Of a stretch of DNA of 64,000 bases, positions 3,083 through 49,633 are shown in pieces. Location of the stretch: positions 20,730 through 84,729 of the forward strand of contig WRIL01000006.1 in assembly GCA_009782775.1 (NCBI GenBank). The letters run 5' to 3'. A program made the translations under genes and the position numbers. How positions within the stretch are numbered: position 1 is the stretch's first letter; each line of letters starts with the position of its first letter. The stretch comes from Desulfovibrionaceae bacterium. GTDB lineage: Bacteria; Desulfobacterota; Desulfovibrionia; Desulfovibrionales; Desulfovibrionaceae. The notes below the pieces were generated by a model, which saw nothing but the letters and a program-made list of their open reading frames with translations, was not told the origin of the DNA and ran no database searches.

Positions 3083-4274
3083 AGGCCAGCGCCTCCAGGG
3101 GCTCCGCCGGCACGAACCCGGGGTGGATTATGCGATTCCTGGCCAGGAGGTCGGCCTCCGGGGCGATATCTCCGGAAATACGATAACAGAGCGCCAGGGA
3201 GGGCAATACCGCGACTGGGACATAGGTGACGATGTCGGGGGCGGAACGGGCGGCCTCGGCCAGGGCGGCCAGGGTGGCGGCCCGCATGTCCGCCAGGGCT
3301 GCAAAAAAATCCTCCTGCGTGCCGCTCCTGTCCTCCAGCGCGGCCTGCACGGCGTCCATGACGTCCACAAAGCTCTCGCGCAGGACGCGGGCCTCGGCGC
3401 GGGAGGCAGGTTCGGCCAGGGCCAGGCCGGCGGCCGCTTCCACGGTGGCGATTTGCCTAATAAAGAGCCGCACGGCCAAATCATTTTCGGCGACGCGCTC
3501 CCGGAGCGAGCCAGGAGCCTCTATTAACGGCCGGGGAACTCCCTGCCCGGCCAAATTCAGCCAGCCGGCCGCCCGATTTGCCGGCGATCCCCCGGCGGCA
3601 TCGCCCAAACCCTGGAAGCCGGCCCATAAACGCCGCCCCACGGACAGCCAGGGGAGAAAATCATGGCCGGTCGCGGCCCCCAGCATACCGGCAATCACCC
3701 CGGCATTGCCGCCCAGAGCGGCCTGCGCCCGCGACATAGCGGAAGTGACGGCCAGGTAGGCCTGGTCAAGCACAAAAACTCCCTGATTGGCCAGGGCAAA
3801 AGCGGAGTCAAAGGCGTCGCAGGCGAGAATACCGGCTTCCCCGCTCCTGGAGAGGGCGCGATCCCGGGCGTTGACGCCGGAATCCGGGCTGGAGGGCGCG
3901 CCGTCCCGGACAAAGGACAGGGTAAATACGGCCATGCCGCCGTCATCGGCGCTATGGCGCACCCGGTAAGGGGCGAATTGCGAAACGGTTATCTCGCCGT
4001 ACCAGGGGTGGACCAGGGTCCCGGAACCGGGCTCGTCCAGGGCGCGTTCCAGGGCATCGCGCCTGTCCATGTAATCCTGGCCGAGCACAAAGGCCTGCAC
4101 GGTAAAACGCTGGCTGGCGGCCCCCAAATCTTCAACATAGACCTCGTCGCGCTGCGGGAATTCGTGGACCACGGTACGGCGTCCGCCGGCCTTGTCGTCG
4201 CCGCGGACCCCGAAGGGCGCCCCCCTGAAGGAAGCCGGCCGGATGCGCTCTTTCCAGGACATCTCAGTACCCAT
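3075..4274 (-). CDS. Mu gp43-like tail protein (DNA circularisation N-terminal domain)
   Basis: Protein of 399 residues whose first 100 or so residues match the DNA_circ_N domain of Mu gp43 (gpN): SWKERIRPASFRGAPFGV, then VVHEFPQRDEVYVEDLG. Despite the family name, the role in contractile phages is tail/baseplate assembly. The rest is Ala-rich and helical. Two starts are possible, 4274 (overlapping the tape-measure stop) and 4262. The 3' end overlaps the gp44 start by eight bases. Confidence 0.85.
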   Translation of the reverse strand: MGTEMSWKERIRPASFRGAPFGVRGDDKAGGRRTVVHEFPQRDEVYVEDLGAASQRFTVQAFVLGQDYMDRRDALERALDEPGSGTLVHPWYGEITVSQFAPYRVRHSADDGGMAVFTLSFVRDGAPSSPDSGVNARDRALSRSGEAGILACDAFDSAFALANQGVFVLDQAYLAVTSAMSRAQAALGGNAGVIAGMLGAATGHDFLPWLSVGRRLWAGFQGLGDAAGGSPANRAAGWLNLAGQGVPRPLIEAPGSLRERVAENDLAVRLFIRQIATVEAAAGLALAEPASRAEARVLRESFVDVMDAVQAALEDRSGTQEDFFAALADMRAATLAALAEAARSAPDIVTYVPVAVLPSLALCYRISGDIAPEADLLARNRIIHPGFVPAEPLEALAYG

Positions 4275-19225: not shown

Positions 19226-20590
19226 TTATGCGTCCAGCCCCCCCCCGCGCTCCGCCATGACCTTGCTGAAGGGTTTGCCGTCCGCCTGCAAGACGGCTTC
19301 GGCTCCTGACATTTCCTGCCAGCGCAGGATGATCACATCGCAAAACTTAGGGTCCAGTTCCAAGATACGGCAGACCCTTCCCAGGCGCTCGCAGGCTATG
19401 AGGGTGGAGCCGGATCCGCCGAAGGGATCCAGTACGATATCTCCCCGGCTGCTGGAATTCACAAGCATGCCCTCAATGAGGGCCACCGGCTTCATGGTGG
19501 GATGCTGCGCCGACACCTGGGGCTTGGGGGCATGAATGACGGAGGAGGCCAGCTCTTCCACCAACGCATCCTTTCCGGTGATACGCAGCAGGCGGTCGCC
19601 GGCGGATACCTGCCAGCCGTTTCCATCCGGCAGAGGCACGGCTGTGGGAAAGGCGTCCATGACCGTGGTCTGCCGCCTGTCGCCGCGCCAGCGGTGCGCC
19701 GCCCCCGGCAGCCAGCCATAGAGAATGGGTTCGTGCTGCCAATGGTAATCAGCCCTGGAAAGCACGGCCTGGTTCTTATGCCAGACCAGGCAGGAAGCCA
19801 GCTTAAAACCGGCCCCCAGGAAAGCCTTGCGGAAGGTTAGGCCACAGGAGCCGCCATCGGCATGGGCGACGTAGACCGCGCCGCCCGGACTGAGACAGCC
19901 GGCCATCTGCCCGAAGGCGAGAGTCAGGAAATAGATAAAATTGTCATCGGGCATGTCGTCGTTTTTGATGCCGCCGGCCTTGCCTTCATAGGCCACGTTA
20001 TAAGGCGGATCCGTCCAGACCATCTCCGCCCTTTCATCTCCCATGAGTTGCTGATAGGGCGGCCAGGCGGTCGCATCGCCACAGACCAGTCGATGGGGGC
20101 CGAGCAGCCAGAGATCTGCCTCCCTGCTTACCGGAACGTCAGGGGCATCTGGCGCCGCATCGGGGTCGGCCTCTTCGCGCTGCAACAAAGCGCGCAAGAG
20201 GCGGTCAATCTCCCCGGAACCAAACCCCGTGACCGCGAGATCAACGTCTAAATCGCGCAGGGCGGCCAGTTCAACAGCCACGGCCCCTTCATTCCATTCC
20301 GCCCAGGTGGCCGAACGGTTCACCAGCAAACGGAAGGCGCGGATCTGTTCATCACTCATGCCTTCGGCGGGCAATACCGGAACCTCGGCTAGGCCTAGAC
20401 GTCGGGCCGCCTTCAGGCGCAAGTGCCCATCCACCACTTCACCATCGCGCCCGGCCAGGATCGGAACACGAAAACCGTAATGACGTATGGCCTCCGTCAT
20501 GCGTTCCACGCAATCATCGTTGCGCCGTAGCGCCTTTTCACAGGGCCGTAGCTTCTCCACCGGCCAGTATTCAAGGTTCAGCTTTTCCAT
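19226..20590 (-). CDS. ParB-domain DNA adenine/cytosine-N4 methyltransferase
   Basis: The ORF track starts at 21145, but the first 185 residues are a shadow of the primase gene. The ATG at 20590 (MEKLNLEYWPVEKL) with AGGAAA upstream gives 454 residues. The first 120 form a ParB/sulfiredoxin-like domain (VVDGHLRLKAARRLGL). Then comes a methyltransferase with catalytic DPPY (TDPPYNVAYEGK, about residue 190) ahead of the SAM-binding motif LDPFGGSGST near the C-terminus, the beta-class order. It could protect phage DNA or regulate replication and packaging. Gap to the primase stop is 14 bases. Confidence 0.88.
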   Translation of the reverse strand: MEKLNLEYWPVEKLRPCEKALRRNDDCVERMTEAIRHYGFRVPILAGRDGEVVDGHLRLKAARRLGLAEVPVLPAEGMSDEQIRAFRLLVNRSATWAEWNEGAVAVELAALRDLDVDLAVTGFGSGEIDRLLRALLQREEADPDAAPDAPDVPVSREADLWLLGPHRLVCGDATAWPPYQQLMGDERAEMVWTDPPYNVAYEGKAGGIKNDDMPDDNFIYFLTLAFGQMAGCLSPGGAVYVAHADGGSCGLTFRKAFLGAGFKLASCLVWHKNQAVLSRADYHWQHEPILYGWLPGAAHRWRGDRRQTTVMDAFPTAVPLPDGNGWQVSAGDRLLRITGKDALVEELASSVIHAPKPQVSAQHPTMKPVALIEGMLVNSSSRGDIVLDPFGGSGSTLIACERLGRVCRILELDPKFCDVIILRWQEMSGAEAVLQADGKPFSKVMAERGGGLDA

Positions 20591-20604
20591 CCGCAGGTTT
20601 CCTG

Positions 20605-22116
20605 TTATGCCTCTACTGCTGCCATGCAGTATGAGGGTTGGGAATGCTCCTGGTCGGATGACTCCGCATCCGGTCTCCCCGCGGAGTTGTCGCTCCGTGG
20701 GGAAACCCTCGCCCTTTCCATCAAGGCCAACACAAGCAAATCCTGATATTCCGCGCTCCAAAGCTCCATGGCCACGCGCTCGTCCTCGGAGAGCAAATCC
20801 GTCCCCTGGAGGATGAAGCCGCCCTGGAACGGTTCCAGCGCGCCCCCCCAGCGGCCCAGCATGTCCCAAGCCTCTTGCGGGCTCAGCGGCGCGTAAAGCC
20901 CCAGGGATGTCAAAGCCGCGGCCAACCGCGCTTCGTGCCCCGAGACATTCGGCAAACCAGAAAGCCAACGTCCCACGGGCATGGATTGCCGGGAATGGAC
21001 GGCCCTGGGAGCGGGCAAGGTCAGGACCGGCGGCAGCCCGGCCTTGATCCAGACGGCCAAATCCACGCCCAGGGAGGCGGCCTCGCCTGGATCCTTGCCC
21101 TGGGGGACCGGCCAGCGGACGGCCTGCCGGTAGGTTTTTCGCCACCAGGGGAAGCCCTCGGCCCCCGGACGGCGGCCGTCTTTATCCGGAGTATCATAGT
21201 CCAGGGCCACCAGGACGGCCGCGCTTTCAGACAAAACCGCATGGGCGGCCGCGTCCGGCTTGCCCCGGTTGGTGCCCACGGCCAGCGCGCCTACGGGCAG
21301 CCCGGCCCTTTCCGCGGCCCAGACGCAGGCCATGGCGTCCAGCTCGCCCTCCACCACCACCCAGGCGCGGGTTTCACCGGCAGGGGCTGCCGGAGACAGG
21401 CGCAACGTCCCCATGAAACTGCCCGGAAGCACATAAAACTTCATGTCCCGCAAAAACCGCTCCCGGTCCGCGTCCGGCCGGCGGACGCGCAGACGCAACG
21501 CTTCGCCGCTCTCGCCCAGGAAAGGGACCAGCAGCCCGCGCGGAATCCAGAGCTTTTTGGGCTGGCCCTTGTCGTCCTTTTCCTCGGGCAACCCCCAGGC
21601 CACCCGGCCCCGATGGTAGCAGTTATTTTTCCCCTCCCCTGGAAGCCATCCAAGCCGGAAACGCGCAACCGTCTCACGGGGCAAGCCCCGGGCCTCCAGC
21701 CGGGCCAGTTCGCCGGGGTTGCCGAGGAGTTGTTCCTGGGCAAAGGTCAGGAGCGCCTCGGCCTTGCTCCGCCAGACCCGCGCCGGATCGGCGTGCTCCT
21801 TGGGGATGAATGCCTCCGGGCGCTTGGCCCTGGGCAGGATCAGAGGACGGCGGCTGCGCTCCCTGGCGGCAACCCCCAGCTGGGCGCAGGCCTCGGCATA
21901 GGACAGACCGCTAAAAACACGCAGGAACTCAATGGCGTCGCCGCCCTTGTTACAGCTCCTGCACCACCAGGTGCCGCGCTCGCCCTGCTCCGGCCAGCAC
22001 TTGAAGCGGTCTTTCCCGCCGCAGGCAGGGCAGGGGCAGGCGTATTCCCCTCCTTTGCTTCCGGCGATTTTCCTGGGTTCCAGACCGCGGCGATAGAGCA
22101 AATCCAGCAGGACCAT
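20605..22116 (-). CDS. Phage DNA primase (CHC2 zinc finger plus Toprim)
   Basis: Protein of 503 residues. The N-terminal zinc-binding domain reads YACPCPACGGKDRFKCW then TWWCRSCNKGGDAIEFL. A Toprim fold follows, with VVVEGELDAMACVW and LVALDYDTPDKDG supplying the acidic metal ligands. It should make primers for phage replication together with the adjacent D5-type helicase. The ATG (22116) lies inside an inverted repeat of CAGGACCAT, so its expression may be controlled by whatever binds that element. Confidence 0.88.
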   Translation of the reverse strand: MVLLDLLYRRGLEPRKIAGSKGGEYACPCPACGGKDRFKCWPEQGERGTWWCRSCNKGGDAIEFLRVFSGLSYAEACAQLGVAARERSRRPLILPRAKRPEAFIPKEHADPARVWRSKAEALLTFAQEQLLGNPGELARLEARGLPRETVARFRLGWLPGEGKNNCYHRGRVAWGLPEEKDDKGQPKKLWIPRGLLVPFLGESGEALRLRVRRPDADRERFLRDMKFYVLPGSFMGTLRLSPAAPAGETRAWVVVEGELDAMACVWAAERAGLPVGALAVGTNRGKPDAAAHAVLSESAAVLVALDYDTPDKDGRRPGAEGFPWWRKTYRQAVRWPVPQGKDPGEAASLGVDLAVWIKAGLPPVLTLPAPRAVHSRQSMPVGRWLSGLPNVSGHEARLAAALTSLGLYAPLSPQEAWDMLGRWGGALEPFQGGFILQGTDLLSEDERVAMELWSAEYQDLLVLALMERARVSPRSDNSAGRPDAESSDQEHSQPSYCMAAVEA

Positions 22117-22368
22117 TATTTATGGTCCTGGCATGGTCTTGGCATGGTCTTGGGTAATAAATACATATAATTATTAATCTTTTTCTTGTTTTAGGACCAT
22201 AGGACCTTTGACACACAAACACATGTATAAACCCCCCCCCGCGCACACGTTTTAAATAGATCCGAAAATGGTCCCATGGGCATGGCTCCCCGTAAAACCC
22301 ACGCCGACCAAGGGATAAAAGGCAGGACAAAAGACAAAAAAGCCCGGGACTGTCCTGCAATGGTCCTG
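22108..22368. repeat. Cluster of AGGACCAT repeats with AT-rich centre, candidate phage origin or operator
   Basis: Copies of CAGGACCAT or its complement lie at 22108-22116, 22122-22130, 22193-22200 (8 bases) and 22360-22368. One-mismatch copies are at 22133-22141, 22144-22152, 22201-22208 and 22268-22275. The copies at 22122-22154 form three tandem 11-bp units. The first pair makes a 9-bp inverted repeat around TATTT that includes the primase start codon. Between copies is an AT-rich stretch (about 22155-22192). The gap of about 250 bases has no gene. Confidence 0.65.
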
Positions 22369-22369
22369 C

Positions 22370-24028
22370 CTAGAAGTCGTCCTGATCCTCCTTGTCCTGA
22401 TCCTTCAGCTTTGACCGCACCGACTGCAAAACGCGCAGGCCGTAGTAATAGTAATGCCCCCCGACCCGCTCCCTTCGGAAGCGTTCTTTCATCAGCTTAC
22501 CGAAGGCCTTCTGGGAAAAGTCTTTTTTGGCGCTGATATTGGCGCGGAACCAGAGCATGAACGTGTCATAAAGCTCGCTGGCCAAGGTGCGCATAGAATC
22601 CGGGTTGTCCTTGATCAGCTCGCAGCAGTCCTCCAGGAATTCACCCAGGAGATCCTCGGACTTGCGATATTCGGCCACCGCCTCCAATACCTTCAACGGG
22701 GGCGCCAGGCCGACCTTCTGCCACTCCAGGCAGCCGCGGACCAGCCAGGCCAGGATGCCGGGCAGCTCCTGGCGTAGCCGTTCGGACAGGGCTTTATCCA
22801 CCGCCCGCTCTTTCGCTCCCTGGGGCTTTCGGTCCACGAAGGATATGGGGAAGTCCACCAGGAGCAAACGCTCCCAGAAGGCGAAATCTGTGGCCGGCGC
22901 ATGCGGTTTATTGTTGGTCAGCAGACAGAGCAGGTGCGTCGGGTCAAATGTGATATCACGCTTGTCATGCGGGTAGCGGCCGGTAAGCTTGTCCCCCCCG
23001 GAAAGCCATTTCACCCGTGCAGCCGAGAAGCGCTGCCCTTCGTCCGTTTCCGAGGCGAAGGCCAGGCGCATGCCGCGCAGGGACATTATATCAGGCGATG
23101 GCCCGGCCGAGCTGCGAACTTTCCCCTGATCCAGCAACATCTCCGACTGGATGACCCTGGCCAGGGCGCTGAAGGGATTGGTGCCCCCCAGCACGTCCAT
23201 GATGATATCCGTGATAATGCTTTTGCCGTTGCGCCCCTTGCCGTACAGTACCAAAAATTTATGCTCGGATACCAGCCCGGTTAGACCGTAACCGAAGATC
23301 CGGCGCAGGAACTCGACCATTTCCCGATCTTCGTCCATGATCTCCAGGAGGGCTTTTTCCCAGGCTGGGCATGGCTCGTCAATGCTCCGCCATTCCACCG
23401 GCGAGGCCCTCATCAAATACTCTTCCGGCCGGCCGGGCCGTAAGAGGCCGGTTTTGAGATCCAGCACCCCGTTGGCCACCGGCAAAGCCCAGGGGTCACG
23501 ATCAAACTCATCCCCGCGGATGGCCAGAGGGGCATCGCGGTTGGTCTTGGCGAAATTCAGACAGTTTAGACGGCCGGTCTTGGAACGGAGCTTGTTGATC
23601 CTGCCCTTCAAGGCCTCGCACTTGGCCTTTAGGCGCTTGGCTGTTTCTCCGTCTCCGCTCTCTTCCGCCTCCTTGCTCGCCTGGAAGTAATGATCACGGG
23701 TGCGCTGATAGGCCTCGACCACACCTTCGACGTCGGCCTGGGCCAGGTGAGCGTTATCGATATCGTCTATCCTCCAGTGATGGCCGCGCCAAGTCATCCA
23801 CTCGCCGGCCTGGCCAACATAGGCATGCCTAAGGCGAAAGAGCGCGGCAAAGAGCATGCCGTCGCCCAGCTCGTTGGCGTACAGGCACTGCATCACGAAA
23901 TCATGAGTCAGCTCGGGAGCCGCCACACCGGAGGATTCACCCCGAGCGGCGGCCTCTTCTTCCTCCTGGCGCGCTCTGGCCATAACCTGCTCGCGTATGA
24001 CATTTTCATCCTTTTTTTCATCTGCCAT
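22370..24028 (-). CDS. D5/P4-type phage replicative helicase
   Basis: Protein of 552 residues. The N-terminal third is charged and helical (FHA-like order not seen). The D5_N-type region includes RGDEFDRDPWALPVANGVLD. The SF3 helicase domain has Walker A LYGKGRNGKSIITD (about residue 260), a following FASETDEGQRF segment and sensor LLCLLTNNKPHAP. It unwinds DNA at the phage origin. The stop codon abuts the AGGACCAT repeat cluster, and the primase gene lies downstream on the same strand. Confidence 0.9.
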   Translation of the reverse strand: MADEKKDENVIREQVMARARQEEEEAAARGESSGVAAPELTHDFVMQCLYANELGDGMLFAALFRLRHAYVGQAGEWMTWRGHHWRIDDIDNAHLAQADVEGVVEAYQRTRDHYFQASKEAEESGDGETAKRLKAKCEALKGRINKLRSKTGRLNCLNFAKTNRDAPLAIRGDEFDRDPWALPVANGVLDLKTGLLRPGRPEEYLMRASPVEWRSIDEPCPAWEKALLEIMDEDREMVEFLRRIFGYGLTGLVSEHKFLVLYGKGRNGKSIITDIIMDVLGGTNPFSALARVIQSEMLLDQGKVRSSAGPSPDIMSLRGMRLAFASETDEGQRFSAARVKWLSGGDKLTGRYPHDKRDITFDPTHLLCLLTNNKPHAPATDFAFWERLLLVDFPISFVDRKPQGAKERAVDKALSERLRQELPGILAWLVRGCLEWQKVGLAPPLKVLEAVAEYRKSEDLLGEFLEDCCELIKDNPDSMRTLASELYDTFMLWFRANISAKKDFSQKAFGKLMKERFRRERVGGHYYYYGLRVLQSVRSKLKDQDKEDQDDF

Positions 24029-24387
24029 ATCAGCTCCCTATGTTTACAGGTCCGGAACCGACGCGTCCGCCGGCGTTCCAAAATTCCACGGATTTATCCC
24101 AAAAAATTCCACACCTTTTGGGGTCGGAAACCCCCGCATTAGATTGGAGGCCAGAGAGGACCCAGAATTTATTCCGAGCGCAAAACCGCCATAGGACCAT
24201 TCTGGATAGATTTTGAAAAAGAGGGGGTAAGGAGGGTGTGGACGGTTCCCCGAAGAGCGGGCTACACCCGCTGTAGGAGGCGGCCGCAATCACTATCTGG
24301 AGGCTGTGACGGACGCCTCGCTTTTCCCATTGTTGAGGAGATTGCGACCGCTCTCCCCTAGATGCAGTCCAGGGTGGAAAATGCGAT

Positions 24388-24458: not shown

Positions 24459-24535
24459 TGGTGTCCCCGGCGTGAGTCGAACACGCGGCCTACAGCTTAG
24501 GAGGCTGTCGCTCTATCCTGCTGAGCTACGAGGAC
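24459..24535 (-). tRNA. tRNA-Arg (anticodon CCT)
   Basis: The minus strand folds as a complete cloverleaf: a seven-pair acceptor (GTCCTCG with CGGGGAC, one U-G pair), a D arm, anticodon stem ACAGC/GCTGT with loop CTCCTAA, a T arm with loop TTCGACT, discriminator A and an encoded CCA (24459-24461). The anticodon CCT reads the rare Arg codon AGG. tRNA-Arg genes are common integration sites. The 3' end of an integrase reading frame runs into the 5' half of this tRNA. Confidence 0.95.
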
Positions 24536-24787
24536 ACTTGGTTTCTGCGACACCAGGTTTTTTGCCGTAATTTCTGCCGAAAACTTAATATTTCCTGGCA
24601 ACTCCGGTATTGCCTCTACCACGGCTCTTTTCCTCGCGTCAACAACGTGCTGGTGATGCTCCAATATCGTCTTGGGATCATTACCCATAATCTGGGCTAC
24701 CGTGCCAACATCCGCGCCCGCCGCAATGGCCTTATCCGTGTCGTGCTCGTGGAATTTTTGCCATATGCCCTCCATGTTCGGTATGAC
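24497..24787 (-). pseudogene. 3' remnant of a tyrosine recombinase (integrase)
   Basis: About 95 codons resemble the C-terminal part of a phage integrase: [18 protein letters not shown], then [18 protein letters not shown]. In intact relatives this stretch has the catalytic Tyr in HYQHV; here the codon is a His (HHQHV). The upstream H-x-x-R box is also unrecognisable (HEHDTD). A stop lies just upstream of the fragment, and the 5' part is absent. The frame ends inside tRNA-Arg ([10 protein letters not shown]), as is usual for integrases that use a tRNA as att site. It therefore records an older element on the right side of the tRNA. Confidence 0.72.
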
Positions 24788-25237: not shown

Positions 25238-26227
25238 ATGCCGGTGATCTTTTTTCTGGCGGATCCTTATACCCTGGGAAACATGACCGCAGCCCTTGAG
25301 GCCGGGGCGGACAATTTCATTGTGCCGCCGGAGCATTTGCCCCAAGCTGAAAACTTGGCCCGCTGCCATTTCACCGCTTCTTCCTCCTTCACCTTCATTT
25401 CTCTGGCCTCCAAGGAGGACGAACGCCGTACCGCGGATCTTCTGCGCAACGGTGTTTCAGTGCTCCTGCGGCATGGTTGGGAGGTTATTCCGGTAGAAAA
25501 CCTCCTGGCGCATTTGCAGGGAACCCCCCAGGGGGGAGAATTGCTTCTGGAGGTTGTTTCGCCTGAAGAGACGCAACTGGCCTTCGGTATCCTGGAAAAA
25601 GGCGTGCACGGTGTAGCCGTGCCGCCTGCGGCCTTGGATAAACTTAAACAGATTTTAAATACCTCGCATAGCAATCAAGCCATCATTCCCCTAAGTGAGG
25701 CGCGGATCCTTGAAATTTCTCCAACAGGCATGGGGCACCGGGTTTGCGTGGATACCCTTTCCAACCTTGGCAAGGGGCAGGGGCTCCTGGTGGGCAATTC
25801 CGCAACCTTTACTTTTTTGGTGAACGCCGAGACCGAACGGAATGAATATGCGCCCCCGCGCCCATTTCGCATAAATGCAGGAGCCGTGCACGCCTATACC
25901 TTCCTGCCAGGCGATTCCACGGCCTATCTGGAAGAATTGCGCGCCGGTTCGGGGGTACTGATTGTCGATTCCCATGGCCGCACAGAGACAGCCGTGGCCG
26001 GACGGATCAAGGTGGAAAGGCGGCCCATGCTGCTTATCCGGGCGGAGGCTGAAGGACGGGAAGGCACAATTTTTTTGCAGAACGCCGAAACCATACACCT
26101 GGTGACCCCGGAAGGAGAAGCCAAGAGCGTGGTGGCGCTTGCCCCCGGAGACAGGGTGCTTTGCCGTCTAGATCAGGCCGGCCGGCATTTTGGCGTACGT
26201 ATAAATGAAAATATCGACGAAAAATGA
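25238..26227 (+). CDS. 3-dehydroquinate synthase II (archaeal type)
   Basis: Protein of 329 residues of the family that converts 2-amino-3,7-dideoxy-D-threo-hept-6-ulosonate to 3-dehydroquinate with NAD, in place of AroB. Conserved blocks include TGMGHRVCVDTLSNLGKGQGLLVGN, FTFLVNAETERNEYAPPRPF and RINAGAVHAYTFLPGD in the second half. Length and blocks are normal, so this gene looks functional although the gene supplying its substrate is broken next door. It overlaps pheA by four bases. This gene is a marker of archaea and of some anaerobic bacteria, including Desulfovibrio. Confidence 0.92.
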   Translation: MPVIFFLADPYTLGNMTAALEAGADNFIVPPEHLPQAENLARCHFTASSSFTFISLASKEDERRTADLLRNGVSVLLRHGWEVIPVENLLAHLQGTPQGGELLLEVVSPEETQLAFGILEKGVHGVAVPPAALDKLKQILNTSHSNQAIIPLSEARILEISPTGMGHRVCVDTLSNLGKGQGLLVGNSATFTFLVNAETERNEYAPPRPFRINAGAVHAYTFLPGDSTAYLEELRAGSGVLIVDSHGRTETAVAGRIKVERRPMLLIRAEAEGREGTIFLQNAETIHLVTPEGEAKSVVALAPGDRVLCRLDQAGRHFGVRINENIDEK

Positions 26228-27348
26228 GGCCGGCCATGACTATTCCCCAAGCTGAGGCAGATGAAGAAAAACTTCTCGAACCGATTCGCGCGGAAATTAA
26301 TCGCCTGGATGCGGAACTCCTCGTATTGCTCAACCAGCGCGCCGCTTGTAGCCTTAAAGTCGGCGCCATCAAAAAAAAATTCCAAACTCCGGTATTCAAG
26401 CCTGGACGCGAGCAGAGCCTTCTTCGCAAACTAAGCGCGGCCAACCGGGGGCCGCTTGGCGAACGGCAACTGCTGACCATCTACCGGGAAATTTTCTCCG
26501 TCTCCAGGGATTTGCAGCGCCAACCCAGCATTGCCTACCTGGGACCGGAAGGCGCTTTTTCCCATATCGCCTGCCTGGAATATTTCGGTAAGTTGAGTTG
26601 CCTTCTCCCCAAGGATTCTTTCGGAGATATTTTTGAGGCGGTGGAGAGGCGCATCTGTGATTTGGGGGTTATCCCCATGGAAAACTCGTTGCACGGCGCC
26701 ATGTGGCAATGCCTAGATCTTTTCACCACCCATGAGGTTTATGTGCAGGCCGAATGGATCAATCGCATACACCTGAGTCTTATCTCCAGGGAAAACTCCC
26801 TGTCTCCCATCAGAGTGGTCTATTCCCATGCCCAGCCCCTGGGGCAATGCGCGCGCTGGTTGCGCAAAAATCTCCCCGGCGCGGAGCAGGTTTTGGTGGA
26901 GAGTAGCGCCGCCGCCGTACGGCGGGTGACGGACGAAGCCAACAGCGCGGCCATAGGACATGCCGGTCTGGCTGAACGCCTGGATCTGCACGTGCTGGCC
27001 GTGAACCTGGAAGATTCTTCCGACAACTGGACGCGCTTTTTCGCCATTGGCCCGGAACCGGGCGACTGGGCGGAGGCCGACAGATCTTCCATTATTTTCG
27101 CCCTGGGCAAACGTCCCGGCGCCTTGTCGGCGGTGCTGGACGTTTTCGCCGGGGCCGGGATAAACATGAGCAAGCTGGAATCCAGACCTTTGCGCGGCGA
27201 ACGCTGGCATTACATCTTTTTTACGGACCTGGATTGCAATATCCTCGCCCCGGAGCATCAAGCCATTCTGGAACAGGTTCGGGAGCACTGCGACAACCTG
27301 AAGGTCATCGGCGCTTATATGGAGGACAAACATGTCCGCGCCGTATGA
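26224..27348 (+). CDS. pheA: Chorismate mutase/prephenate dehydratase with ACT domain
   Basis: Protein of 374 residues. Residues 15-95 are an AroQ-type chorismate mutase (IRAEINRLDAELLVLLNQRA, KVGAIKK). Residues 100-275 are the dehydratase, with AYLGPEGAFSH, PMENSLHGA and the catalytic NWTRFFAIG. An ACT domain for Phe feedback follows (KRPGALSAVLDVFAGAGIN with ESRP). It makes phenylpyruvate from chorismate. Start at 26224 overlaps the DHQS stop; a second ATG follows at codon 5. Its end overlaps the TyrA remnant. Confidence 0.93.
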   Translation: MRPAMTIPQAEADEEKLLEPIRAEINRLDAELLVLLNQRAACSLKVGAIKKKFQTPVFKPGREQSLLRKLSAANRGPLGERQLLTIYREIFSVSRDLQRQPSIAYLGPEGAFSHIACLEYFGKLSCLLPKDSFGDIFEAVERRICDLGVIPMENSLHGAMWQCLDLFTTHEVYVQAEWINRIHLSLISRENSLSPIRVVYSHAQPLGQCARWLRKNLPGAEQVLVESSAAAVRRVTDEANSAAIGHAGLAERLDLHVLAVNLEDSSDNWTRFFAIGPEPGDWAEADRSSIIFALGKRPGALSAVLDVFAGAGINMSKLESRPLRGERWHYIFFTDLDCNILAPEHQAILEQVREHCDNLKVIGAYMEDKHVRAV

Positions 27349-27721
27349 ATTTCAGCATTTGGCAGTGGTCGGAAACCCTTGGGTGGTCGTTCCTCTACTT
27401 GCCATGGAACAAGTCCTGATGGACATCGCCTCGGTCAAAACCGAACCCATGTGGTTCACGGAAGAGAGCTTTTCCGGCGCGGTCATCGGTAGCCACCACC
27501 TTTTCAGGCCTTGCCCGGAACCACTGGAGGCCGCACAAAGAAGCCGGACGGAAAACGCGGGCATGTTTTGCGAATTTACGGCCATGAATCCATATTTCCA
27601 AAATATTCTCGGGCATTATGAAAAAATCCTGCATGAAGCCACGCCTTTCTCCCAGGCAGGCGAGCCGGACGGACTGAACCTGCTGGCCCGCGAGACCGCG
27701 ACCTGGTATGCCGGATGGTGA
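27332..27721 (+). pseudogene. tyrA: In-frame deletion remnant of prephenate dehydrogenase (TyrA)
   Basis: The 129-codon ORF keeps recognisable TyrA pieces in order: a start FQHLAVVG of the NAD-binding fold, then MDIASVKTEPM, AVIGSHHLFRP (like GSHPLFGP), and a C-terminal NPYFQNILGHYEKIL. The material between is missing, so most of the Rossmann fold and the catalytic region are absent; a normal protein has about 260 residues. No stop or frameshift is present. It overlaps pheA by 17 bases and aroA by seven, in the usual place for tyrA. Dehydrogenase activity is not expected. A short protein with a new role cannot be excluded. Confidence 0.65.
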
Positions 27722-29013
27722 AATCCATGCAATATACCGTGCACTCCTCCAGCATAAACGGCAGTCTGAGCGTGCCCGCCTCCAAATCACACAGCCTGCG
27801 AGCCATTCTTATGGCCTCCCTGGCCGATGGCATAAGCCGCATCCGCGCCTCGCTGCCATCCCCGGATACCCTGGCCATGATCCAGGCTTGCCGCGCCCTG
27901 GGAGCAGAAATCCTTGAAAAAGGCCCGAATTTGGAAGTGCGCGGACTTGGTGGCCGGCCAAAGATTCCGGATCAGGTGATTGACGTGGGCAATTCCGGCC
28001 AGGTCCTGCGTTTTGTGGCGGCTCTGGCCGCGCTTCTGCCACAATACACAATTTTTACCGGCGATGCCTCCATCCGCTCCATCCGGCCGGTACAACCCCT
28101 GCTGGATGCCCTTTCCGGCCTAGGCGCCTTTGCCGTGTCCAGCAAAGGAGACGGGCACGCCCCCATCATCGTGCGCGGCCCCGCCAAGGCCGGGAATACG
28201 CGCCTGGACGGGGCGGATTCACAACCGGTATCAGCCATGCTTTTCCTGGCCTCCTTTCTGGAAGGCAAGACTACCATCCTGGTGGACAACCCCGGAGAAC
28301 AACCCTGGATCGATCTCACTCTGCACTGGTTGGAACGCCTTGGGATACCCTGCCGACATGATAATTATCGCGAATATACGGTGCGCGGTCCGGCTGGCTA
28401 TTCCGGATTTGATTATACCGTTCCCGGGGACTGGAGTTCCGCCACCTTTCCCCTGGTCGCTGCTCTGATCCAAAATCAGCCTCTGGAACTGCAAAACCTT
28501 GATTTCCATGACCCTCAGGGCGATAAAGCCATTCTGGATGTCCTACGGGCTATGGGCGCGAATTTTATAGCACATGAAGAGGAAAAACGTCTGGAAGTGC
28601 GTTCCCATAACGGTTTGCGTGGTCTGGAGGCCGATCTGAACCACATTATTGACGCCGTGCCCGCGCTGGCCGCCCTAGCCTGTTTCGCCCAAAGCCCAAG
28701 CCTGTTCCGTGGGGTGGAGATCGCCAGGCATAAAGAATGTGACCGCCTGCGGGCCATTGCCTGCGAATTGGGCAAAATGGGCGGCCTGGTGGAAGAATTG
28801 CCCGACGGTCTACGGATCACCCCGGCCAGGTTGCATGGCGCTCTTACAGAAAGCTGGCGGGATCATCGCATCGCCATGTCCATCGCGGTGGCGGCTTTAA
28901 GTTGCGGTGAAACCGTAATTCGGGATAGCGCATGCGTGGCCAAAAGCTTTCCGAGTTTTGTCCGAGCCATGTCCGCTTTGGGCGCGCGCATTGAAGAAAG
29001 CGGCTCTTCATGA
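27715..29013 (+). CDS. aroA: 3-phosphoshikimate 1-carboxyvinyltransferase (EPSP synthase)
   Basis: Protein of 432 residues. The substrate-binding start reads SLSVPASKSHSLRAILMASL, followed by DVGNSGQVLRFVAALAAL and, near the end, VEIARHKECDRLRAIACEL and SWRDHRIAMSIAVAAL. All are standard EPSP synthase motifs. It condenses shikimate-3-phosphate with PEP. A second in-frame ATG at codon 5 (MQYTVHSSS) is also a possible start. It overlaps the TyrA remnant by seven bases and the aroK start by four, so translation is probably coupled. Confidence 0.93.
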   Translation: MVKSMQYTVHSSSINGSLSVPASKSHSLRAILMASLADGISRIRASLPSPDTLAMIQACRALGAEILEKGPNLEVRGLGGRPKIPDQVIDVGNSGQVLRFVAALAALLPQYTIFTGDASIRSIRPVQPLLDALSGLGAFAVSSKGDGHAPIIVRGPAKAGNTRLDGADSQPVSAMLFLASFLEGKTTILVDNPGEQPWIDLTLHWLERLGIPCRHDNYREYTVRGPAGYSGFDYTVPGDWSSATFPLVAALIQNQPLELQNLDFHDPQGDKAILDVLRAMGANFIAHEEEKRLEVRSHNGLRGLEADLNHIIDAVPALAALACFAQSPSLFRGVEIARHKECDRLRAIACELGKMGGLVEELPDGLRITPARLHGALTESWRDHRIAMSIAVAALSCGETVIRDSACVAKSFPSFVRAMSALGARIEESGSS

Positions 29014-29546
29014 ATATAATTTTGCTGGGATTCAAGGCCAGCGGTAAAAGCACCCTGGGCCGGACATTGGCTCAAATTTTAGGCCGGAAATTCCTGGATA
29101 CGGATATCCTTGCCGAAGACTTGTACGCAACGGAACACCCTGGAAAACACCCCGATTTCCGGAGCATCAGCCGCGCCCACGGAATGAAAGCTCTACGCGA
29201 TCTTGAGGCCAGGGTCATTCAGGGGTTGCGTTCCGCCGCCTTCAGAGGCGACGAGATCATCGCTACTGGCGGCGGCATTATCCTACGGGAAAAAAATATG
29301 GAAATTTTGGGTTCTCTGGGACCACGCGTTTTTTTGGACACATCCATGCCCCTGCTGGAAGAGCGGCTACGCGGCCAGGATTCTCCGCTCTTTGCCGACA
29401 AAAGCGTGGCGGAACTACACTGGGAACGCTACCCTCTTTACCTGCGTTTTTCAGATTTGCGTTTGCCCATTGCCAGGAATCTGCCGCCTGAAGAATTATC
29501 CTGGCAGCTACTTGATCTGTTACAGGAGGCGGGTTATGGCCAGTAA
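29010..29546 (+). CDS. aroK: Shikimate kinase
   Basis: Protein of 178 residues with Walker A (LLGFKASGKSTLGRT), the shikimate-binding Asp region (FLDTDILAED) and the GGGIILRE motif. It phosphorylates shikimate. Canonical motifs and the position between aroA and aroC make this the operon's true shikimate kinase, in contrast to the divergent homologue at 44.3 kb. The 3' end overlaps aroC by 11 bases. Confidence 0.9.
   Translation: MNIILLGFKASGKSTLGRTLAQILGRKFLDTDILAEDLYATEHPGKHPDFRSISRAHGMKALRDLEARVIQGLRSAAFRGDEIIATGGGIILREKNMEILGSLGPRVFLDTSMPLLEERLRGQDSPLFADKSVAELHWERYPLYLRFSDLRLPIARNLPPEELSWQLLDLLQEAGYGQ

Positions 29547-48124: not shown

Positions 48125-49633
<1,509 letters not shown>

Follow-up and report, generated by a model that had tools for sequence, protein, structure and literature searches.

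The gap (22117-22369) between the helicase and primase genes of a prophage found in a Desulfovibrionaceae-like MAG is very probably an iteron-type replication origin, whose repeats would be bound by the D5/P4-family helicase and whose AT-rich stretch at 22155-22192 would be melted. All coordinates are those of the window, the whole stretch of 64,000 nucleotides that was analyzed. This reading is supported since the repeat array lies 3′ of a gene for a D5/P4-family helicase, the spot occupied by known origins, and arrays of this kind have been described for P4, A2, Sfi21 and the phage-inducible islands. A probable replication origin is thereby placed, by sequence, in a group of Desulfovibrionaceae prophages that had not been studied. 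Among its relatives there are dozens of helicases that can be matched with their iterons, the repeat word varying while the layout stays, therefore the specificity of initiator-origin recognition in the P4/D5 family becomes testable.

The prophage of approximately 37.15 kb is inserted in a tRNA-Arg gene of the 1.74-Mb MAG, and its right-hand 24.5 kb falls inside the window. One copy of the attachment repeat is listed in Table 1 and the other lies at window coordinate -12649 (contig C6, about 8081). PHROG and Pfam matches identified genes for a GpA terminase, portal, head and tape-measure proteins. The element also has an integrase gene, and beyond the tRNA there are host genes of the shikimate pathway. 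The host cluster adjoining the prophage (25238-29546, plus strand) encodes 3-dehydroquinate synthase II (DHQS), chorismate mutase-prephenate dehydratase, EPSP synthase and shikimate kinase. A small orf overlapping the tRNA-Arg (24497-24775, minus strand) resembles by eye an integrase C-terminus; it had no PHROG or Pfam family match and gave no alignment with the prophage integrase. The helicase, a phage/plasmid primase of the P4 family according to TIGR01613 (primase_Cterm), and the primase are encoded co-directionally on the minus strand, helicase first, and the primase gene starts inside the repeat array.

Table 1 Features of the proposed replication origin and its surroundings (window coordinates)
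Feature	Coordinates	Strand	Basis
Attachment repeat, 45 bp of the tRNA-Arg(CCT) 3′ end	24459..24503		Direct repeat and tRNA call
Single iteron AGGACCAT, 165 bp upstream of helicase ATG	24193..24200	+	Exact
D5/P4-family (SF3-type) replicative helicase, 552 aa	22370..24028	-	PF08706 D5_N 4e-24; TIGR01613 2.8e-60
Helicase-primase gap, proposed replication origin, 253 bp	22117..22369		Gap length and array kept in most relatives
Block A iteron AGGACCAT	22360..22367	-	Exact; conserved in alignment
Block A second iteron, weak, AGGACAGT	22349..22356	-	2 mismatches; aligned with copies of relatives
Inverted weak iteron AGGACAAA	22324..22331	+	2 mismatches; relatives have an inverted site near +38
Block B weak iteron ATGCCCAT	22276..22283	-	2 mismatches; aligned with tandem site of relatives
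Block B iteron GGGACCAT	22268..22275	-	1 mismatch; position conserved
Block B′ iteron AGGACCTT, inverted	22201..22208	+	1 mismatch; conserved in alignment
Block B′ iteron AGGACCAT, inverted, neighbour 8 bp away	22193..22200	+	Exact; conserved
AT-rich stretch, proposed DNA unwinding element	22155..22192		20% GC in 22160-22199
Block C iteron AAGACCAT, 11-bp phased	22144..22151	-	1 mismatch; direct repeat
Block C iteron AAGACCAT, 11-bp phased	22133..22140	-	1 mismatch; direct repeat
Block C iteron AGGACCAT, 11-bp phased	22122..22129	-	Exact
Terminal inverted iteron AGGACCAT overlapping primase ATG	22109..22116	+	Exact
DNA primase with zinc ribbon, 503 aa	20605..22116	-	PF08273 Zn_Ribbon_Prim 9e-12; phrog_849 4e-34

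The whole window contains six exact copies of AGGACCAT, namely the five listed in Table 1 and one at 49443 (plus strand), against 1.84 ± 1.29 in shuffled windows, and six copies were reached by none of 100 shuffles. The copy at 49443, in host DNA, looks like a chance occurrence. Together with the 1-mismatch search this confirmed the four exact and four near copies originally claimed between 22109 and 22367. Three more members carrying two mismatches (22349, 22324 and 22276), absent from the original prediction, were seen once the relatives had been aligned. The AT-rich core proved to be real and the first inverted pair does include the primase start codon (ATG, 22114-22116); the copy at 22360-22367 had been said to touch the helicase stop codon (22370-22372) but ends 2 bp from it, the array thus beginning immediately 3′ of the gene of the proposed initiator. 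The rest of the genome does not have the element at this density: there are 49 copies of AGGACCAT in the 1.74-Mb MAG, which contains no pair of directly repeated copies within 30 bp of each other. At the MAG's own rate the Poisson probability of four copies in 259 bp is 7e-11 per place and ~5e-7 genome-wide. That the repeats arose by chance, or represent a codon or RNA feature, is favored by the shortness of 8-mers and by the corresponding stretch of many distant D5 phages, which contains nothing of the kind. Chance was rejected by the window shuffles, the genome-wide count and the Poisson estimate, and it does not agree with the conserved layout described below; the gap contains no Rfam family. 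The probability left for this explanation is close to negligible.

Read from the helicase stop codon, the putative origin opens with block A, a pair of direct sites, and a weak inverted site. Blocks B and B′ come next, each a pair of sites spaced by 8 bp, direct in B, where the first is weak, and inverted in B′. They are followed by the AT-rich stretch, block C (three direct sites with 11-bp spacing) and the inverted site with the primase ATG. Blocks B′ (22193-22208) and C (22122-22151) therefore form two iteron sets bracketing the AT-rich DNA at 22155-22192. The presence of inverted copies is also what one would look for in a stem-loop origin of the type of the crenarchaeal plasmid pRN1, in which the initiator gene is followed by a DNA hairpin recognized by its shape. 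In pRN1 an essential stem-loop region lies 3′ of the gene for a prim-pol/SF3-helicase/winged-helix protein, and a stem-loop of 100 nt is required at this equivalent place (PMC4234260). In both systems the origin, proposed in the case of the prophage, lies 3′ of an SF3-helicase gene; it contains a stem-loop in pRN1 and iterons in the prophage. A stem-loop origin was rejected as the DNA of the gap folds no better than shuffled sequences (z +1.0, 173 of 200 shuffles being as stable), and we consider it very unlikely here.

The closest parallels to the proposed iteron origin are found in phages of other hosts. The origins of the phages A2 and Sfi21 have reportedly been studied experimentally. The rep_origin of A2 (NC_004112, 32208-32717) is annotated directly 3′ of a D5/P4-family primase gene, the product of which is 31.8% identical to the window helicase, and it likewise consists of iterons (ACGGGAGG) arrayed on either side of an AT-rich stretch. 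Its sites at 8, 20, 84, 160, 168, 224 and 236 past the stop codon match the layout of the window (p 0.009), whereas the repeat word is another one, the primase is fused to the helicase and the host is Lactobacillus. In Streptococcus phage Sfi21 (NC_000872, 34487-34784) the annotated origin also follows immediately after the gene of a D5/P4-family 'putative primase', and tandem inverted repeats (TAGTTACT) flank an AT-rich stretch; this phage differs from the prophage in the repeat word and in having a prim-pol rather than a zinc-ribbon primase, and its sites are offset from the stop by ~15-19 bp relative to those of the window, so that unshifted they do not fit the layout (p 0.80). The AT-rich stretch is located between B and B′ in both A2 and Sfi21 but between B′ and C in the prophage. 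The crr element of satellite phage P4 lies directly 3′ of alpha and contains annotated 8-bp 'ori type 1 repeats', in tandem 9 bp apart and as inverted pairs; crr and ori score z ~11 with the array detector applied to the relatives below. Unlike the prophage, P4 has two elements, crr and ori, ~4.7 kb apart, another repeat (GGTGAACA), and a single alpha protein in place of a separate helicase and primase.

A similar organization has been described for the phage-inducible chromosomal islands, in which two iteron sets flank an AT-rich region immediately 3′ of rep; for the origin of one E. coli PICI (EcCICFT073) a plasmid was maintained only with both rep and ori (PMC6092414). The PICI/SaPI rep-ori and the gap of the prophage have in common the paired iteron sets, the AT-rich middle and the location 3′ of the known or proposed initiator gene. 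The helicase also has a sequence relative in the PDB-listed DNA primase 7ola, probably a SaPI protein. PICIs are satellite islands, whereas the window prophage is full-size with terminase, portal, head and tail genes; the possibility that the element is itself a PICI was rejected on account of its own terminase, portal, head and tape-measure genes. In 2018 this origin organization was stated to be common to PICIs and present in no other known bacterial replicon (PMC6092414). Our comparison suggests that origins of the PICI type occur in ordinary temperate phages too.

The original prediction allowed for a repressor/autoregulator array beside iterons. Under such a reading the repeats would be repressor sites, or sites at which the helicase autoregulates transcription of the helicase and primase genes, and not an origin. 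It would agree with the copy overlapping the primase ATG and with the exact copies recurring upstream of the helicase gene, at about -170 to -196 in several relatives, but a search of the gap found no sigma-70-like promoter, and an AT-rich core combined with some ten sites in a conserved arrangement is far more than an operator normally comprises. The records of A2 and Sfi21 place the origin at this very spot. We regard a purely regulatory array as unlikely, and the gene placement together with the comparisons to known origins supports the iteron origin well. The lone exact copy upstream of the helicase gene, also predicted, was found. The 300-bp segments preceding the helicase start in 43 loci contained nine exact copies of the lineage word, and a fivefold larger amount of coding DNA contained two (Fisher 4e-6). 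Several of the upstream copies lie near -170 to -196 in a shared orientation. The copy at 24193 is thus a member of a recurrent upstream site and not isolated noise; it may plausibly serve autoregulation or act as an auxiliary origin site.

A further gene in the neighbourhood encodes a ParB domain and an N6/N4 DNA methyltransferase fused in one orf (19226-21145, minus strand). Because this gene lies directly 3′ of the primase gene, the repeats could be sites for its product, e.g. a centromere-like or methylation array. No such gene is annotated beside the arrays of A2, Sfi21 and P4, and in all three the array adjoins a D5-type gene, which makes the assignment to the ParB-methyltransferase highly improbable.

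Conservation of the proposed origin was analyzed in relatives collected by helicase and primase searches. The helicase was present in 86 loci, and 73 of these were non-redundant. In loci with the primase gene after the helicase gene the gap mostly measures ~250-300 bp. Each gap was searched for repeated 8-mers and an array was called significant when equalled by no more than 1 of 60 shuffles. Such arrays were present in 52 of the 73 non-redundant relatives, as compared with 5 of 70 coding control segments, none of which had a z above 3.7; the remaining 21 gaps had no significant array under this 8-mer shuffle test. The arrays are thus conserved in related phages, though their sequence varies by lineage, the best words being AGGACCAT, CAGGACAT (found in the gap of locus L037 and differing from AGGACCAT), GGAGGGTT, TAAGGGAC, ACTGTCTA, TTTACTCA, CTCATGGT and GGGTGATT. 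In the loci of the relatives the density of the lineage word in the gap was ~167 times that found outside it, a figure that is inflated because the word had been picked in the gap.

The layout was conserved across an alignment of nine gaps. Loci with different motifs had site positions in common more often than expected (0.188 vs 0.113 ± 0.0085, a value reached in 0 of 500 shifts). In the lineage of the window phage the sites peak at 1, 19, 38, 88, 163, 214, 222 and 240 after the helicase stop codon, and arrays built of independent words, including those of A2 and Lactobacillus phage JNU_P5, fit these peaks with a combined p of ~0.0005, the individual arrays ranging from p 0.009 down to no fit. 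From lineage to lineage the repeat word varies, and the places of the sites relative to the helicase stop are largely kept.

The proposed initiator is the helicase. A profile search with it found viral D5 and C962R primase-helicases and the solved DNA primase 7ola (E 2e-13), which we take to be PriRep1 of SaPI. Its AF2 (AlphaFold) model has a pLDDT of 92, and residues 480-533 form a helix-helix-strand-strand arrangement (pLDDT above 90), a winged-helix-like C-terminal pattern; a winged helix is accordingly predicted from the model at about residues 469-533. The Pfam Pox_D5 winged-helix model had no match in the helicase C-terminus, whereas the A2 and Sfi21 proteins do match it. Among the relatives the pairwise distance between motifs followed the distance between helicases (rank r 0.47) more closely than that between primases (0.25), and the primase added nothing once the helicase was known (partial r -0.04, p 0.73). 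The specificity was not localized to the winged helix (partial Mantel r 0.086, p 0.049), the rest of the helicase being tracked more strongly, and for this reason shared ancestry could explain part of the correlation between motif and helicase. Binding of the iterons by the helicase, probably through its C-terminal winged helix, is therefore an inference, as are the melting site, the hexamer loading and the replication mode of the prophage.

Initiation could then proceed as follows. The helicase produced from the gene just upstream would bind the AGGACCAT-type iterons, most likely via its C-terminal winged helix, and its copies would gather on the direct sites, phased at 8-9 and 11 bp, on both sides of 22155-22192. 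The assembled helicase would melt this AT-rich stretch and load as a hexamer, after which the neighbouring primase would prime synthesis. Through the lone upstream copy the initiator may control its own production.

It is possible, though still a tentative generalization, that D5-helicase origins constitute one broad class with a layout fixed across bacterial phyla and an iteron word drifting with the helicase. If true, the fixed layout and drifting word would lead to many lineage-specific, mutually exclusive origin codes, and the code of a prophage could often be deduced from the DNA just 3′ of its helicase gene. A rule universal for D5 phages was rejected, as a strong array directly 3′ was present in only 4 of 16 widely sampled D5 phages. 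In this small set 4 of the 16 coding controls passed the loose threshold as well.

Several individual arrays were noted in other genomes. In a Chthonomonas MAG, of a different phylum, a very dense GGGTGATT array of 10 sites (locus L022, 7320-7640; z 20) lies directly 3′ of the D5 helicase gene. Lactobacillus phage JNU_P5 carries an unannotated ATGTAGGG array (locus L101, 2842-3090) with sites at 1, 12, 23, 89, 163, 216, 228 and 240 past the D5 primase stop, a layout close to that of the window, and this array is a probable unannotated origin. In Staphylococcus phage vB_SpsX-DSP2 a GGGATAGT array (locus L098, 3310-3590; z 6.7) flanks an AT-rich stretch directly 3′ of the D5 gene, in a record that carries no annotation. 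Mycobacterium phage Findley has a dense ATCTGTCC array (locus L097, ~3440-3680; 11 sites with no more than one mismatch, z 15) that starts ~130 bp past the stop of the D5 primase/helicase gene and falls within annotated gene 73, which may be an annotation laid over an origin.
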